A stretch of 22,090 nucleotides of DNA, taken from the IMG/VR virus record IMGVR_UViG_3300034283_000532, positions 1 through 22,090 of that record. One strand, written 5' to 3'. This document shows positions 7,487 to 21,108 of this stretch, one piece after another. The position numbers and the translations under genes are program-made. The notes under the pieces were generated by a model. It made no database searches. It worked only from the letters and a program-made list of their open reading frames with translations, and was not told the DNA's origin. Each line of letters begins with the position of its first letter. Positions within the stretch are counted from its first letter, which is position 1. The DNA is from a virus.

Positions 7487-8080
7487 ATGAAGAGAGAGTG
7501 GAAATACCCCGGCAAGTGCTGTGACTGCGGCTGCGATACGCAGAGCAAGTATCGGCCCCGCTGTATCTCCTGCGGCCAAAGAAAGCGTCGAGGCAGCACC
7601 ACGGGCCTGCCAGACGGCTTTGTTGTTGACGAGTGCTTTCAAGAGAAAGTCGGCAATCTGATCTGGAGACTCCGGGGTGGCTATGCGGTGACACGACGAA
7701 CCGAGAACGGCAGAGTCAAAAAAATCCCTCTCCACAATTTCATCTGGGAACTTTCTGGCAGAACGCTCCCGGCACTTCCTCTGACAATCGACCACTGCAA
7801 CCGCGACCCCAAAGACAACCGCCTAGAGAATTTGCGAATTGCCACACCTAGCCTTCAGGCCCTGAATCAAAAAAATAGGCCAAAGAAATCCGGCCTGCCC
7901 AGAGGGGTGTCTTTTGTGCCGTTCAACGGAAATGGAAAGCCAAGGGTCAGGCCATACGCTGCGAAGGCTGCCGGAAAGTTCATCGGAAATTTCGCAACCC
8001 CCGAAGAAGCATCTGCCGCCTACGAAAAGAAACGTGAAGAGTTGATGTCCCTTGAGCTTTCCCTTTCCTCCCCGGAGTAA
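7487..8080 (+). CDS. Zinc-ribbon/HNH/AP2 free-standing endonuclease (197 aa)
   Basis: ATG 7487 follows the CAP gene by four bases, with AGGTGA just upstream. Residues 11-29 carry a zinc-ribbon-like pair of Cys clusters (C11/C14 and C26/C29). The HNH nuclease centre is IDHCNRDPKDNRLENLR, with D102 and H103 as the probable metal-site residues and N111 and N115 downstream. From about residue 138 an AP2-like DNA-binding domain follows (RGVSFVPFNGNGKPRVRPYA, then GNFATPEEASAAYEK). This HNH plus AP2 build is typical of phage homing endonucleases, which cut a specific site and spread their own gene. Two runs of seven A (7718-7724, 7869-7875) are unlike the GC-rich neighbours and fit recent acquisition. 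No intron is evident around it. Confidence 0.88.
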   Translation: MKREWKYPGKCCDCGCDTQSKYRPRCISCGQRKRRGSTTGLPDGFVVDECFQEKVGNLIWRLRGGYAVTRRTENGRVKKIPLHNFIWELSGRTLPALPLTIDHCNRDPKDNRLENLRIATPSLQALNQKNRPKKSGLPRGVSFVPFNGNGKPRVRPYAAKAAGKFIGNFATPEEASAAYEKKREELMSLELSLSSPE

Positions 8081-9209: not shown

Positions 9210-9866
9210 ATGGAAGAAGTAGACATCCCAGACGTTCAGCCTGACGGCCCTATAGCAAGTAGCCGCGCCTGTGAGGCGTGTGGCATCGTCAAGCCGCTCG
9301 ACCGTCGCAGGTGGCCTCTTGTCCCCGGAACCCAGCACACTCTCCAGCCGATCTGCAAAGCCTGCTACAAGCTGGTCAAGCACCGGCAGAAGATTGAGAC
9401 AACCTCCCGGCGGGCGGCGGAAGCGTTCATGCAGGCCCCGCTTGTCCGCAAGGGCGGCAGCAACATCCCCCACTCCACTGAGTTGCTGGAGTCGATCTAC
9501 GGACTCTTTGGTGGTGTCAACGGGCTGGCCAACGAACTGGCCCACACCTACCACTCAGCCCCTCCCGGCGGGCGTATCCGCACCAGCATTCTGGAGACTG
9601 TGGTCAGGCTCACGAACAACGTGGCGGATAGCGGGGCAGTCCAGAAGCCGGTGTCGCTCCTCACTGACGATGAGTTGGAGCAGAGGCTTGCCCAGAAGAT
9701 TGCGTTGGCTGCGGAGTCCCAGAAGAATCTGGACTACCTGAACCAGTCCACTGAGGTGGAAATCCCGGCTGGGATGATTCAGGCCAACCAGATTCCTGTG
9801 GCCGAGATAGAGCAGGCCATGAACATGAGCCGCCTTGTGGAGGTCCCACATGGCGAACCCTCTTGA
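9210..9866 (+). CDS. Probable terminase small subunit-like protein with zinc finger (218 aa)
   Basis: ATG 9210 has AGGTGA just upstream. Residues 21-52 form a CxxC...CxxC zinc-finger-like site (C21, C24, C49, C52) with a Trp-Pro and basic core between, likely to bind DNA. The rest is mainly helical: a Ser/Arg stretch (TTSRRAAEAFMQAPLVRKGG), a middle region (ELLESIYGLFGGVNGLANEL) and a long helical segment (TDDELEQRLAQKIALAAESQ) that could mediate oligomer formation. It sits directly upstream of, and overlaps by 17 bases, the large terminase gene. That is the standard place for the small subunit, which recognises phage DNA and loads the motor. No small-terminase family was recognised by sequence, so the role is inferred from order and DNA-binding features. 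Confidence 0.65.
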   Translation: MEEVDIPDVQPDGPIASSRACEACGIVKPLDRRRWPLVPGTQHTLQPICKACYKLVKHRQKIETTSRRAAEAFMQAPLVRKGGSNIPHSTELLESIYGLFGGVNGLANELAHTYHSAPPGGRIRTSILETVVRLTNNVADSGAVQKPVSLLTDDELEQRLAQKIALAAESQKNLDYLNQSTEVEIPAGMIQANQIPVAEIEQAMNMSRLVEVPHGEPS

Positions 9867-11511
9867 TAATGTCTCGCAGCACTCCAGACAGGAGATGCTC
9901 GACCTACAGAGGGAGTTGGCATCCCGCCAGCTTGAGTCTGTCAGGCTCTATCGACCCAATGCCAACCAGCAACCCTTCCATGACTGCATGGCTTCAGAGC
10001 GTGTTGTGCTGGGGGGAAATCGGAGCGGCAAGACTACGGCTGCCATGCTGGAGTTCGCGTGGGCTGTAACCGGGACGCACCCCATTGAAGGGAAGTACCC
10101 GAAGGAAAACGGCACAGCGGTGGTTGTGGGGGCCGACTGGCGGCACATCGGGATGGTGTGCGTGAGGGGCTTATTCAAGGCAGGGGCATTTAAGATCATT
10201 CAGGATGCCCATACTAAAGAGTGGCGGGCGTATGACCCGGTTGCGGACAAGGCCCGGGAGTCCGAGGCCAAGCCCTCCCCGCCCCTGATTCCGCCCCGGA
10301 TGATCAAGAACATTAGCTGGGTTCTGAAGTCCGCAGGGTATATGCAGTCCTGCGAGTTGACCAACGGATGGCAAATCTACTTCTTCTCGTCTGAGGGTGA
10401 TCCTCCACAGGGCTACCGTGCCCATCTTGCTTGGATTGACGAGGACTTGGCTTCCGAAAGCACTTGGCTGGCTGAGTTACAAGCTCGTCTTGCTGACTAC
10501 AAAGGGCGGCTGGTGTGGTCGGCAACCCCGCACTCCAAGAATGACGCGCTCTTTGGCCTGTGCGAACGGGCTGACAAGGCGGCAGAGGAAGGGCATGACA
10601 ACCCCAAGAAGTTCGTCCTGCGGTTCCTCGACAACGAACACATCTCCAAGGAAGCCCGTGCCCTAGCTGTGGAACAGTGGGCCGCACAGGGCGAGGAAGT
10701 CCTGAGGATGAGAGCGGAGGGTGAGTTCACCTTCGACTCCGTTCTCATGTACGGCAGTTTCAACATGGGGGTCCACGGCTTTTCCCGCAAGGAACTGCCT
10801 GACGGCCAGATTCCCGCAGACTGGTGCAGGTATGCGGCCATCGACCCGGGCCATGCCATCTGTGCGGTGATGTTCGCGGCCATCCCACCGTCCGGGGACT
10901 TCGTTCTCCTCTATGACGAACTGTACATCCCCAACTGTTCCGCCGTGGTCTTTGCCGAGAAGTTCGCAAACAAGCTGGCAGGGCAGCCCCAGCATTACGC
11001 CTTTTTGATTGACTCCCACGGTGCGCGTTTAACGGATATAGGCGGCGGCAGGTCCCCCGGCCAGCAGTATTCGGAGCAGTTGGAGATGCTAGGCATCCGC
11101 TCAAAGGCCACCGGCTCGTCCTTCATGCACGGGTCAGATGACATTATGGCTGGAATTGAGAGTGTGCGTAACGCCATGCACATCCGGGCTAATGGAACCA
11201 CCAAGTTGCGAGTGCTGGAGGGAGCATTGCCCAATTTCCAGAGAGAAATTAAGCGTTACAAAAGGCAGTCCACAGTCGTTGGCGGGCAAAGCATCGTTCT
11301 TGATAAGCCCCATCCGCGTTCGGTTTCCCACCTCATGGACTGCCTTCGCTACCTGATGGCTGCGGACATTCGCTACCACAAACCAGAAGAGAAGCGTGAA
11401 TCTGCTTGGTGGGAGGGGTGGATAGCAAAACGGCGGCGAGAGCGAGGGGAGGAAAGCAACGTGGTGTACCTCGCCCCCTCTTCCTACACATCGCAAACCT
11501 ACGTCGCGTAA
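9850..11511 (+). CDS. terL: Terminase large subunit (553 aa)
   Basis: The start is ATG 9850 with GGAGG six bases upstream. A TTG start at 9835 adds only five residues and is less likely. The ATPase half has a Walker A loop GGNRSGKT (residues 55-62, K61), a Walker B WIDED (D197, E198) and a coupling motif LVWSATPHSKN. The nuclease half has an RNase H-like acidic set: D332 in AAIDPGHA, D388 in FLIDSHGA and D497 in HLMDCLRYL. The length is normal for the family. The enzyme docks on the portal, pumps DNA into the head using ATP, and cuts concatemers. The gene overlaps the upstream zinc-finger gene, supporting a shared packaging complex. No intron or inserted sequence interrupts it, despite the HNH gene immediately downstream. 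Confidence 0.95.
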   Translation: MANPLDNVSQHSRQEMLDLQRELASRQLESVRLYRPNANQQPFHDCMASERVVLGGNRSGKTTAAMLEFAWAVTGTHPIEGKYPKENGTAVVVGADWRHIGMVCVRGLFKAGAFKIIQDAHTKEWRAYDPVADKARESEAKPSPPLIPPRMIKNISWVLKSAGYMQSCELTNGWQIYFFSSEGDPPQGYRAHLAWIDEDLASESTWLAELQARLADYKGRLVWSATPHSKNDALFGLCERADKAAEEGHDNPKKFVLRFLDNEHISKEARALAVEQWAAQGEEVLRMRAEGEFTFDSVLMYGSFNMGVHGFSRKELPDGQIPADWCRYAAIDPGHAICAVMFAAIPPSGDFVLLYDELYIPNCSAVVFAEKFANKLAGQPQHYAFLIDSHGARLTDIGGGRSPGQQYSEQLEMLGIRSKATGSSFMHGSDDIMAGIESVRNAMHIRANGTTKLRVLEGALPNFQREIKRYKRQSTVVGGQSIVLDKPHPRSVSHLMDCLRYLMAADIRYHKPEEKRESAWWEGWIAKRRRERGEESNVVYLAPSSYTSQTYVA

Positions 11512-11515
11512 CACA

Positions 11516-11593
11516 GTCTGTCGGAGACAGACATGACCCTCTGGTTGTCAGAGCGGAACCGCTGTGGTAACGCTGAGAGGAGGAGGGTTACCG
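11516..11593 (+). promoter_or_regulatory. Hairpin-rich leader of the HNH gene, with ribosome site in a loop
   Basis: Four inverted repeats lie in 78 bases. GTCTGTCGGAGACAGAC (11516-11532) has a perfect seven-pair stem. CTCTGGTTGTCAGAG (11539-11553) has five pairs. GCGGAACCGC (11552-11561) has four. GGTAAC (11566-11571) pairs with GTTACC (11587-11592) around a loop holding the Shine-Dalgarno GAGGAGGAGG. The HNH start codon at 11594 follows directly. A 26-codon frame at 11533-11613, preceded by GGAGA, overlaps the hairpins and the start. The arrangement suggests control of HNH translation, or a terminator for the terminase transcript. Confidence 0.5.
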
Positions 11594-12280
11594 ATGACCA
11601 AAGAAGAGTTTGACGCTGCGGTGAAGGCTTTGCGGGGGAAGGTTGCGCCGAAGAAAGCCAACAAAAAGAAAGCAGATTCCACGCCGGAAGAGTGGGCTGC
11701 GAACGCTGACTACATGATTAAGTGGCAGTCTGAAAACCGCGACAAGACCAGAGAGTATGTCCGTAGGTGGAGTGCTGCAAATCCAGAGCGGATCAAGGAG
11801 CTTGGGCAGCAGTGGCGAAAAGCCAATCCGGGGCTTAGCACCAAGTGGAAACGCGCCAACGCCGATAAGTCCCGCGATTACGCTCGAAACTATCAGGCGA
11901 CCCGGAAAAACAATGACCCTACCTTCAAGTTGCTGGCTATCCTCCGCGACCGGCTAAACGTTGCCATCAGGCGCAACGCCAAGAAAGGTTCTGCCGTCCG
12001 CGACCTTGGGTGTTCTGTTGACGAACTCTGGGCACACCTTGAATCCAAGTTCCAGCCCGGGATGACCCGCGAGAACATGGGTAAGGCATGGGAAATTGAT
12101 CATATCTTTCCGTTGTCCAAGGCCAATCTAAAAGAAAGTCGAGTGGAGTTTCTGGCTGCCAACAACTGGCGGAACCTCCAACCTTTGACACCAAAACAGA
12201 ATCGGGAGAAGGGCGGCACTGTAACTCCAGAAGCTCAAGCTCTGTTTGACCAACTGAAGGCTGAGTTCGCCGGAACGTAA
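11594..12280 (+). CDS. HNH endonuclease with basic N-terminal region (228 aa)
   Basis: I placed the start at ATG 11594, five bases after the run GAGGAGGAGG. A GTG at 11564 would add ten residues but has no ribosome site. The first half is very basic, with repeated short units built around W/Y and Lys/Arg (WQSENRDKTREYVRRWSAAN, WRKANPGLSTKWKRANADKS) that look like tandem DNA-contacting helices. The C-terminal nuclease has EIDHIFPLSKAN (D169, H170) and NNWRNLQPLTPKQNREKGG, the usual His-Asn layout of phage HNH proteins. It cuts DNA and probably acts as a free-standing homing enzyme. It stands between the terminase and the portal gene group. Its stop codon is part of the repeated 17-mer CGTAACTATTGCCCGCC. 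Confidence 0.88.
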   Translation: MTKEEFDAAVKALRGKVAPKKANKKKADSTPEEWAANADYMIKWQSENRDKTREYVRRWSAANPERIKELGQQWRKANPGLSTKWKRANADKSRDYARNYQATRKNNDPTFKLLAILRDRLNVAIRRNAKKGSAVRDLGCSVDELWAHLESKFQPGMTRENMGKAWEIDHIFPLSKANLKESRVEFLAANNWRNLQPLTPKQNREKGGTVTPEAQALFDQLKAEFAGT

Positions 12281-12292
12281 CTATTGCCCGCC
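12276..12292 (+). repeat. Second exact copy of the intergenic 17-mer
   Basis: CGTAACTATTGCCCGCC here is identical to 2923-2939. It includes the TAA stop of the HNH gene and lies 57 bases upstream of the next start codon. In the first copy the distance to the start codon is 51 bases. No sigma-70 boxes are evident downstream of this copy, so a shared phage-specific promoter, an operator or a nuclease site are all open. A longer match to the first copy (AACTATTGCCCGCCGCCA) occurs inside the metallopeptidase gene at 6540-6557. Confidence 0.45.
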
Positions 12293-12349
12293 TACAGGGT
12301 GTCGATACGCTTACGCCAAGTAAGTTCATTTCCCATGGGAGGCAAAACC

Positions 12350-12730
12350 ATGTATGCGATGCCCGAGATTGAAGTTGGTGATTTGTGTTTCTGGCATGAC
12401 GATCCCCTTAATTCGTCCCCGCCCAGCCTAGGCTGGTGTATCCAACGAGGTAGGGAAACTATCTCTGTGTTGGTGTTCACAGACACAAGCGGGTTCGTTG
12501 AGAAAAAGAGCGTTCGGTTCAAGGATGACCCGTTCTGGAAAACCAGTGAGATGGCTGGCAACTGGAGCCAGTGGGGGTGTTGGGCTCCGCATCCGCACAC
12601 CGAAACCCTCAAGGAAATCCGTAGTTTCTTGACAAAGCTCAAGATGGCCGAGGCCCGCACCCCGGTGGAGGAGCCTGTTCGCCGTGGCCCCGGTCGCCCG
12701 CCCAAGGTGGAAGTGGAGGTGGCCGAATGA
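12350..12730 (+). CDS. Hypothetical protein with basic GPGRPPK tail (126 aa)
   Basis: ATG 12350 follows GGGAGG by seven bases. An earlier in-frame start at 12284 lies within the repeated 17-mer and lacks a ribosome site. The N-terminal two thirds look like a small beta-rich domain with several Trp (FWHDDPLN, SLGWCIQRGRETISVLVF, WSQWGCWAPH). A helix follows (EIRSFLTKLKMAE), and the end is a flexible basic stretch, RRGPGRPPK, resembling the core of an AT-hook, then an acidic terminus. It may bind DNA through this tail, but the match is short. Its stop overlaps the next start in ATGA. No family is recognised. Confidence 0.7.
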   Translation: MYAMPEIEVGDLCFWHDDPLNSSPPSLGWCIQRGRETISVLVFTDTSGFVEKKSVRFKDDPFWKTSEMAGNWSQWGCWAPHPHTETLKEIRSFLTKLKMAEARTPVEEPVRRGPGRPPKVEVEVAE

Positions 12731-19915: not shown

Positions 19916-20524
19916 ATGGCTGACGTACTTTGCTTTAATGGCGTTGAGTGGATTTCTCTGCGTGGCCCCGCTGGCACGGCTGGTGCGGATGGTCAGCCCG
20001 GTGCGGACGGGGCGAAGGGTGATGTCGGTGAAACTGGCCCCGCCGGTGCGGACGGTGTCGCTGGTGAGGCTGGCCCGAAGGGCGATCCGGGCGAGCAAGG
20101 CCCTGCCGGTGAGAAGGGTGACAAGGGCGACTCGGGCAGCGGCGTGACCATCAAGGGTACGGCCACTACCTACCCGCCTGATGCTTCCCCTGAAGTTGGC
20201 GATATGTACCTCGTTGCTGATCCCGTTCCGGTTGGCACTCCTGCCAGTGCGACCGGCCCTGCCCAGCCCGGTGACGGTATCGTCTGGGATTCGGCGGCGT
20301 GGATCAACGTCGGCCCCGTGCGTGGCCCGAAGGGCGAAACCGGAAGTGCAGGGGCCGATGGGGCCGATGGGGCTGCTGGCGCACCGGGCGAGAAGGGCGA
20401 AACCGGCGAAACTGGCCCCGCCGGTGCAGACGGTGCGGACGGCCTCAGTCAGGAGGTATACGGGCCGCAGCCGAACGAGCCGGTCGGTGCTGCGAAGGGC
20501 GCCATCTGGTTTTCCACGACGTAA
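19916..20524 (+). CDS. Collagen-like tail fibre protein (202 aa)
   Basis: ATG 19916 has AAAGGAA upstream. It starts with the shared motif in short form (VLCFNGVEWISL), then runs into Gly-X-Y repeats at about residues 17-76 and again at 134-182, rich in Asp, Glu and Lys. Between them is the same globular unit seen in the 550-residue fibre: GTATTYPPDASPEVGDMYLV, then GIVWDSAAWINVGPV. It ends SQEVYGPQPNEPVGAAKGAI followed by WFSTT, a variant of the GDLWI unit. No tip domain follows, so it may be a flexible spacer or a head or tail appendage. It is followed by a hairpin and an HNH gene. Confidence 0.8.
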   Translation: MADVLCFNGVEWISLRGPAGTAGADGQPGADGAKGDVGETGPAGADGVAGEAGPKGDPGEQGPAGEKGDKGDSGSGVTIKGTATTYPPDASPEVGDMYLVADPVPVGTPASATGPAQPGDGIVWDSAAWINVGPVRGPKGETGSAGADGADGAAGAPGEKGETGETGPAGADGADGLSQEVYGPQPNEPVGAAKGAIWFSTT

Positions 20525-20543
20525 CTGGGGTAACGGAACTGCA

Positions 20544-20579
20544 CGGGGGTATACTGGTGGGATTATGCCACCACCCCCG
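20544..20579 (+). other. Bulged hairpin before the third HNH gene
   Basis: CGGGGG (20544-20549) pairs with CCCCCG (20574-20579), and TGGTGG (20555-20560) pairs with CCACCA (20568-20573), around a seven-base loop with a five-base bulge (TATAC). This gives 12 base pairs. The ribosome site GAGAGGT of the HNH gene starts on the last paired base region. It resembles the position, though not the sequence, of the hairpins before the HNH gene at 11594. It may be a terminator for the fibre transcript or control HNH translation. The TATACT inside it looks like a -10 box but has no partner -35. Confidence 0.4.
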
Positions 20580-20592
20580 AGAGGTAAATGAA

Positions 20593-21108
20593 ATGCCACG
20601 CGGTAGAAAGCCGAAGTTCAACGTCACTGCCGAACAGCTTCAGGAGATGTATCACGGGCGGCAGATGAGTCAGGCCGACATAGGTGCCGCTCTCGGCTGC
20701 ACGCACGTCGCTCAGTTGATGAGGAAGCATGGCATCGCCGCCCGCTCACGCAACAGGTCTGACCCGAAAAAGAACGCCAAGATCGCCGCTTGGAGGAAGA
20801 CGCAATTCAGCCCGATGTCAAACCCATTCGTGAAGGGCTGTCCAACAAAGAAAATCGACGGCAAGAAGTTTCGCATTTACCGTCTGGTTGCAGAAGCGGT
20901 AGCTGGACGTTCTCTGGCAAGCCATGAAACCGTTCATCACTGCGACAACAACCAGAGAAACAACCGCCCCGACAACCTGTGGGTGTTCCCAAGCCGATCA
21001 GACCACACCCGATACCACCGAACCGGAATCATCCACCACGACACCATCAAGCTATCTGAGTTTGTGATGGTGGGTGCGAACACAGAGACTCACACAGAGG
21101 CAATCTAA
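20593..21108 (+). CDS. HNH endonuclease with N-terminal helix-turn-helix-like region (171 aa)
   Basis: The start ATG 20593 follows AGAGG by eight bases. An upstream in-frame extension to 20299 is only the fibre gene read in another frame. Residues 2-8 (PRGRKPK) resemble an AT-hook core. Residues 12-45 look like a small helix-turn-helix (LQEMYHGRQMSQADIGAALG, then THVAQLMRKHGIAARS), which would bind DNA. The nuclease part has RIYRLVAEAVAGRSLASHE and VHHCDNNQRNNRPDNLWVF (H115, H116, N124, N128), the usual HNH layout of phage homing proteins. It lies between two fibre genes, and its stop overlaps the next fibre start (TAATG). Confidence 0.88.
   Translation: MPRGRKPKFNVTAEQLQEMYHGRQMSQADIGAALGCTHVAQLMRKHGIAARSRNRSDPKKNAKIAAWRKTQFSPMSNPFVKGCPTKKIDGKKFRIYRLVAEAVAGRSLASHETVHHCDNNQRNNRPDNLWVFPSRSDHTRYHRTGIIHHDTIKLSEFVMVGANTETHTEAI

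Follow-up and report, generated by a model that had tools for sequence, protein, structure and literature searches.

Phage homing endonuclease genes can carry leaders that mask the ribosome site, with PMC2988022 describing such leaders for Aeh1 mobE, T4 segB and I-TevI. The leader considered here precedes an HNH endonuclease gene in a 22,090-nt (22-kb) IMG/VR virus record (IMGVR_UViG_3300034283_000532, hereafter the window) and is similar to them in that RNA structure is predicted to cover the ribosome site from which a mobile nuclease in a phage operon is translated. By contrast with the leaders described there, its hairpin very probably belongs to a multi-copy family, here termed P1M, most members of which stand before other genes, masking is predicted in three of five leader types, and no internal sigma-70-like promoter was seen. 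The view, taken in the preliminary description, that the leader is specific to the HNH gene is wrong, because its first hairpin (P1), with the core that follows, recurs in this phage group as an intergenic motif standing mostly before other genes.

Type II hammerhead ribozymes occur in bacterial and phage intergenic regions, as stated in PMC3088659. Like P1M, they take the slot between a stop codon and the next ribosome site, in the same operons and several per operon; P1M differs in having another fold, no CUGANGA/GAAA core (none was seen in the leader sequence) and no Rfam match, and its cleavage is putative. Transfer RNA-like folds of the mascRNA/menRNA type are cut by RNase P, and mitochondria use tRNA punctuation. 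Similarly, behind 13 of the 32 P1M copies outside HNH leaders stands a fold that combines an acceptor stem with a T arm of canonical loop and lacks a D arm, whereas the window copy has no T arm and, of an acceptor stem, a collapsed remnant at most. HEARO/omega-RNA and RAGATH-18 are guide RNAs of mobile nucleases and, like the present leader, are conserved RNAs adjoining a mobile nuclease gene; unlike them, the leader has no Rfam match to either and most P1M copies are without a nuclease. Pfam and PHROGs scans of the window HNH protein found neither IscB nor TnpB. No Rfam 15 family matched over the leader, either in a relaxed search of 1 kb or at the gathering threshold over the whole window, and among the open-access papers listed in literature searches no title or abstract opening describes a P1M-like motif, or hammerheads mixed with tRNA-like folds between phage genes.

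The leader and HNH gene lie behind the terminase stop codon (Table 1). Among 23 near relatives, with terminases 80-100% identical to that of the window and all read past the stop codon, leader and HNH gene are both present behind the terminase in seven and both absent in 16, the variation among close relatives expected of a free-standing homing endonuclease cassette; several of these loci are near-identical, so the occupied and empty counts are not independent events. In the seven occupied loci, GCGTAAC or CGTAAC is repeated at the right end. Ten of the 16 unoccupied sites join GCGTAAC straight to a conserved downstream spacer ([T/C]ATTGCCCG), three (L023, L024, L082) read GCGTAACACTG-GCGTAAC-TATTG, two (L021, L029) read TGATGTAACTATTG, and one (L027) has diverged at the stop. 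In the group of three, GCGTAAC is doubled directly behind the terL stop codon (from L023:2666, L024:3278 and L082:6657 onward), with what may be the leader's first bases between its two copies; the arrangement could be the scar of a lost cassette. The HNH frame seemingly has no stop of its own and closes in that of the landing site, the TAA of the terL copy (window 12274-12281).

Table 1. Features of the leader and its surroundings in the window.
Feature	Position	Strand	Basis
Terminase large subunit gene (terL), adjoining the cassette in all five leader types	9850..11511	+	gene comparison
Mobile cassette (leader and HNH gene) after the terminase stop codon	11507..12281	+	bounded by CGTAAC copies at 11507-11512 and 12276-12281
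Full-length match to covariance model R1 of P1M (P1, 3-4 nt, CCCTCTGGTTG)	11515..11548	+	33.6 bits, E 8.7e-9
P1, 7-bp hairpin with GGA triloop and closing C-G (GTCTGTC GGA GACAGAC)	11516..11532	+	three unrelated complementary stems in five leader types; family covariation
26-codon frame, probably not a gene	11533..11613	+	start codon not conserved
Predicted long-range stem pairing the HNH ribosome site (11535-11542 with about 11580-11589)	11535..11589	+	predicted fold
AGCGGAACCGCT, candidate collapsed tRNA-like acceptor stem	11552..11563	+	sequence comparison; inference
HNH ribosome-binding site, GGAGGAGG	11579..11586	+	sequence
HNH endonuclease gene, 228 aa, ATG at 11594	11594..12280	+	PHROG endonuclease VII family, E 1.5e-10; Pfam GmrSD_C below cut-off

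The leader core is present in 13 contigs besides the window record, in all 13 with an HNH gene of the MTKEEFD type behind it; the pattern also matched two unrelated sites (L098, L099). Five leader types can be distinguished, A (window; 4 contigs), B (L006; 2), C (L007; 2), D (L010; 2) and E (L096; 3). Types D and E, in phages with terminases 76.7-77.6% identical to that of the window, occupy a second insertion site, between the terminase and the gene before it; an empty allele of this site was searched for and not found, so the exact ends of these two types are inferred. In both (L010, L096) the 3' end of the HNH gene runs into the terminase start region and the upstream gene is closed by the leader's TAA. 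When the five types are compared pairwise, mean DNA identity is 0.57 over the 45 columns with P1 and the left junction, 0.85-0.92 in the remaining leader and first codons, 0.33-0.54 in the middle of the HNH gene and 0.64-0.80 in its 3' part. Since leader and gene are present or absent jointly, and since 13 of 16 HNH relatives have the leader, the two are one mobile unit whose parts travel together. The other three relatives (L104, L105, L106) have no leader directly upstream, the match in L106 being of 37 residues only. No HNH relative was confirmed in genome_contigs, and no relative of the leader DNA was found in phage and plasmid records.

Four inverted repeats had been proposed in the leader, and all are correctly placed: GTCTGTC/GACAGAC (11516-11522/11526-11532), CTCTG/CAGAG (11539-11543/11549-11553), GCGG/CCGC (11553-11556/11559-11562) and GGTAAC/GTTACC (11566-11571/11587-11592), the last with the HNH ribosome site between its arms. 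The 109-nt leader region has a predicted folding energy of -37.7 kcal/mol (z -2.3), more stable than 195 of 200 shuffles; of the four repeats the predicted fold keeps P1 alone, repeats 2-4 being replaced by a long-range stem of GACCCUCU with AGGAGGAGGGUU, the latter at the HNH ribosome site. The 26-codon frame is likewise present, with GGAGA upstream (11523-11527), which is the loop region of P1. Types A, B and D begin it with ATG, whereas CAC stands there in C and TCG in E. Because the start codon is not conserved, the frame is probably not a gene; a conserved leader peptide was rejected on the same triplets, and the earlier suggestion that translation of the frame regulates the HNH gene finds no support, the start codon being absent from two of the five types. 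Of 37 P1M copies, three (those of types A, B and D) have an ATG directly 3' of P1, as do two additional AGA-loop copies. The distance from the GGA loop to the core is equal in all five types.

The P1 arms read GTCTGTC/GACAGAC in types A, B and D, GATTCGCC/GGCGAATC in C and ACTTTTC/GAAAAGT in E; in each case they surround C-GGA-G and are perfectly complementary, such that the five types, few as they are and with one P1 common to A, B and D, hold three unrelated stems, i.e. a wholesale compensatory change. In the 26 distinct non-HNH copies both sides change in all seven P1 pairs, with 100% paired; since selection of these copies demanded the core, a GGA loop and 5 bp or more of stem, full pairing is partly by choice. 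The covariation score in the same copies is 0.96; shuffles give 0.21, and slid controls do not exceed 0.22. Of the five covariation measures, two do not stand clearly above shuffles: further pair types (16 compared with 13.9 in shuffles; 82/500 shuffles) and pairs with a double change (12/500 shuffles). Overall, P1 exceeds chance and is strongly supported by comparison. Conservation of the stems in homologues, put forward earlier as a check on the leader structures, is thus seen for P1, with compensatory change; the other three repeats are nearly invariant across the five types, and their comparison therefore tells little on them. The P1 stems are nearly pure Watson-Crick, G-U occurring in 1 of 182 cells, a low share, it seems, for an RNA helix whose sequence is free.

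P1M can be described as an intergenic hairpin of 7-8 bp with, mostly, a GGA triloop, followed by a conserved core of ~15 nt. It was first met by BLAST of the leader against the fetched loci, which gave stray matches of 13-15 bases, including two in L105. That locus comes from the far end of a phage record with an unoccupied terminase site, and in it a hairpin with a GGA loop followed by CCTCTGG occurs several times, in gene gaps. The 32 non-HNH copies collected (26 distinct over 34 nt) come from six records. Their collection required a GGA loop, leaving two AGA-loop copies and four copies in G003 outside alignment and model; copies identical over 105 nt were counted once, which removed two L252 copies, and two chance sites caught by a looser rule (L054, in the portal region, and L208) were left out. 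One broad pattern scan covers the matches listed and gives a lower bound; two others used narrower patterns.

The covariance model R1 was built from these 32 copies only, with no HNH leader in training. In the window it finds the HNH leader, the runner-up having 8.7 bits, and no second convincing P1M copy. In 85 loci (736 kb) it matched the HNH leaders of types A-D (29.5-33.6 bits) and E (43.1 bits), copies in L105 and L255 that are in, or repeat, the training set, and one site at 13.4 bits. Strong matches (at least 38 bits) number seven in each of G001, G004 and G005 and eight in each of G002 and G006, and lie per record within one stretch of 6.0-7.4 kb, with the HNH leader of G006 as the single exception; G003 has one R1 match, at 21.4 bits, and eight records with terminases 52-54% identical have no strong match (best E 0.15). 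The P1M pattern without a stem requirement gave 48 distinct sites in the loci fetched, 17 with stems of at least 7 bp, all in the same phage group, and 31 with stems of at most 4 bp. The exact fixed-spacing clade-1 pattern gave 44 sites in 84,980 prokaryote genomes, none with a stem longer than 5 bp. The copies come from few phage lineages and the records are fragments; terminase relatives in annotated phages are at most about 26-27% identical, and the P1M operon stretch tested against annotated phage DNA gave no match. The window leader has the GGA-type triloop hairpin, the core at the fixed spacing and the expected position, i.e. on the sense strand, behind a stop and ahead of a ribosome site, so that, on sequence grounds, there is little doubt of its membership.

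At fixed spacing behind P1 the core reads SCCTCTGGTTG, or CCCTGTTGG or GCCCAGTTG, and three clades are distinguished by their cores (CCCTCTGG, CCCTGTTGG and GCCCAGTTG). The four G003 copies (L298:507, 1361, 2204 and 5047) are of a third form, with a GAA loop in three and GGA in one, and a core of GCCCAGTTG or GCCCAGTCC; the AGA loop occurs in two G002 copies (L253:3998 and 5288). RNAalifold, applied to 37 distinct 50-nt copies, gave P1 alone and no second common helix. Two further contacts were considered and rejected: TGRCC/GGTTG as a common second hairpin suits many clade-1 copies but fails in clade 2, and a kissing contact between the GGA loop and CUCU, noticed by eye, fails in clades 2 and 3.

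The position of P1M relative to genes is characteristic. Twelve of 37 copies have the stop codon of an ORF of at least 70 aa overlapping the 5' arm of P1, and 12 more have it at most 30 nt before P1 (24/37 together); in the remaining 13 the stop is 31-90 nt away in seven and past the loop in one, and five have no such ORF. A next start, found for 34 of the 37, lies 41-122 nt after the loop. In the window the stop is 14 nt before the GGA loop and the start 71 nt after it.

The tRNA-like folds (nine distinct among the 13; none behind the five HNH leaders) have an acceptor stem of 5-7 bp, one hairpin and a T arm with a TTCGANN loop and a stem of 4-6 bp; e.g. they stand directly behind P1M at L251:1578, L251:2454, L252:1599, L253:1435 and L254:791. 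Comparable folds were found in 3 of 1480 base-shuffled segments and in 17 of 546 tiled windows over four loci, the real folds included in the latter; in four of the 13 the acceptor register set by program is shifted from that set by eye. ARAGORN found no tRNA in ten loci, including L105, which holds three of these folds, and the Rfam mascRNA-menRNA model matched two of the stretches at 22.7 and 32.8 bits, below its threshold of 42.5. It is possible that these D-armless folds are RNase P sites. Other P1M copies have a terminator-like hairpin with a T run behind them, as read by eye. Neither a T arm nor a terminator-like site follows the window copy; a 3' module of either kind, present in many copies, is not needed for membership. 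The AGCGGAACCGCT segment of the leader resembles the acceptor pair AGCGGTT/AACCGCT of other copies and may be such a pair with the inside lost.

Other gaps of the P1M operons contain type II hammerhead-like ribozymes, with Rfam scores of 27.5-32.3 bits (gathering score 37). Parsing for CYGANGA, GAAA and stems II and III finds four in G001, four in G004, two in G002 and one in G005. The parts of G003 and G006 that were read contain none by this parse; Rfam gives one at 27.5 bits in G006. The order in the G001 operon, with ORFs called on that strand only, is P1M, P1M, hammerhead, P1M, hammerhead, P1M, hammerhead, P1M, P1M, hammerhead, P1M. In L251 (G001:C1:30000-37021) the hammerheads, at 1157, 2028, 3039 and 5296, lie in gene gaps and largely alternate with P1M, and similar sets are present in L252 and L253. 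At one homologous gap the terminator and spacer are 78% identical over 91 nt (E 1e-14), and the module ahead of the terminator is a hammerhead in L251 (G001) and L253 (G002) and P1M in L207 (G005), the G006 copy reading like L207; the exchange is of one gap, at which the flanking genes are loosely comparable. Because hammerheads fill other gaps of the operons, and because of this homologous exchange, P1M appears to occupy slots in which a self-cleaving or gene-separating element is expected.

The favoured reading, with about even odds, is that P1M is a module for punctuation or processing of mRNA, one copy of which has been carried by the HNH cassette into the structural operon. Such a module would punctuate polycistronic messages on or shortly behind a stop and ahead of the next ribosome site; the message would be cut, trimmed or end-protected there, leaving the P1 hairpin on the 3' end of the upstream message. 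In at least one gap P1M and a type II hammerhead-like ribozyme are exchangeable, and P1M often has behind it a D-armless tRNA-like fold, an expected RNase P substrate, or a terminator-like hairpin. The mobile HNH gene bears one P1M as its 5' end, without the tRNA-like part. On landing, the upstream gene (the terminase in types A-C, the gene before it in D-E) would gain a boundary module and the HNH gene would bring a ribosome site of its own, which in some types is predicted to be masked. What the comparisons show, namely membership in the family, P1, joint mobility with the HNH gene, the usual stop-proximal position and the one-gap exchange, counts for this mechanism, as do the tRNA-like folds and the hammerheads of other gaps. 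Against it, neither a tRNA-like fold nor a terminator-like site follows the window copy, Rfam scores the hammerheads below its gathering value (although core, stem II and stem III are recovered by the parse), 13 of 37 copies have no stop within 30 nt before P1, P1M has a single supported helix, and the near-absence of G-U pairs in P1 also fits a hairpin at the DNA level.

Regulation through the ribosome site is a more tentative and partly independent reading, in which CCCUCU of the core pairs with that site and HNH expression stays low until the leader is opened or removed. The mean unpaired probability of GGAGG is 0.02 in type A, 0.07 in B, 0.08 in D, 0.24 in E and 0.42 in C, shuffled leaders giving about 0.5 for comparison with A, B and D; equally closed shuffles (200 per type) amount to 1% for A, 1.5% for B, 3.5% for D, 14% for E and 22.5% for C. 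The site in the window is thus paired in the predicted RNA; in type A this is by the CCCUCU strand of the core, and comparable pairing is predicted in B and D. A structure over the HNH ribosome site, as the preliminary description had it, is therefore predicted in these three types and is weak in C and E, but it forms by way of CCCUCU and not in the GGTAAC/GTTACC loop. The almost complete pairing in A, B and D favours such regulation, as does the masking known for phage homing endonuclease genes (PMC2988022), and one non-HNH copy, L255:1312, is likewise strongly masked. Against it, masking is weak in C and E, no sigma-70-like promoter, the one type sought, was found within 11300-11800 for a shorter late transcript, and the masking stem is unsupported by covariation because the pairing bases vary little. 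Nor is masking general: in 31 non-HNH copies the next ribosome site is on average 0.36 unpaired, compared with 0.38 with P1M shuffled, and 4 of the 31 are masked at or below the 5% level. A general masking function of P1M was rejected on these values; since the 31 copies are no more closed than shuffled, the predicted masking may be an extra of some HNH leaders rather than the motif's reason. At L255:1312 (G014) the predicted fold pairs the whole of the next ribosome site, like that of HNH leaders A, B and D, and the contig carries an HNH gene identical to that of the window.

A role as a protein-binding operator or antitermination signal, the GGA-loop hairpin being bound by a phage or host protein which, for example, lets polymerase past the terminators behind some copies, is doubtful. 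The near-constant GGA-type triloop atop a stem of free sequence would suit it, as would the several copies just before terminator-like hairpins, but many copies precede tRNA-like folds, the window copy has no terminator-like site, and the binding protein is putative. It is improbable that P1M is an undescribed class of self-cleaving ribozyme doing the same job as the hammerheads in sister gaps, such that P1M, hammerheads and tRNA-like RNase P sites together cut the message into single-gene pieces and the nuclease has captured a copy with which it frees itself from any transcript it enters. The type of slot it shares with the type II hammerhead-like RNAs, their one homologous exchange, the many copies per record, the fixed spacing of P1 and core and the lack of an Rfam match are in keeping with such a class; against this, the core is short and varies among the three clades, one helix only is supported, and self-cleavage would be superfluous for copies with tRNA-like folds or terminators. 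That P1 is a DNA-level feature of the mobile unit, a folded single strand or cruciform serving the nuclease or recombination, is very improbable. In its favour are the almost exclusive Watson-Crick pairing of P1, the high stability in DNA of triloops of the C-GNA-G type and the resemblance of the HNH family to endonuclease VII, a junction enzyme; against it, most P1M copies are not beside an HNH gene, and strong copies are oriented with their flanking genes, mostly after stops and before RNA-level features. CsrA-type binding to GGA and a DNA hairpin like that of IS200/IS605 elements are further conceivable readings.

If P1M does punctuate messages, these phages would cut or cap them gene by gene with three kinds of RNA module per operon, comparable to the tRNA punctuation of mitochondria. 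A mobile nuclease gene could then bring a ready-made boundary module and enter an operon with little harm to its neighbours. The exchange of hammerhead for P1M at a homologous gap would make a test of cleavage direct.

An HNH relative, 44% identical, lies inside a P1M/hammerhead operon at L105:3995-4735, with its stop codon inside the P1 hairpin of the following P1M copy, an arrangement which is a possible source of the cassette. The window itself has two more HNH_3-type genes (7487-8080 and 20299-21108), without a P1M leader. The conserved spacer at window 12281-12350, TATTGCCCGCC...TACGCT, follows terL in many unoccupied relatives, before the next gene, and is possibly another structured leader.
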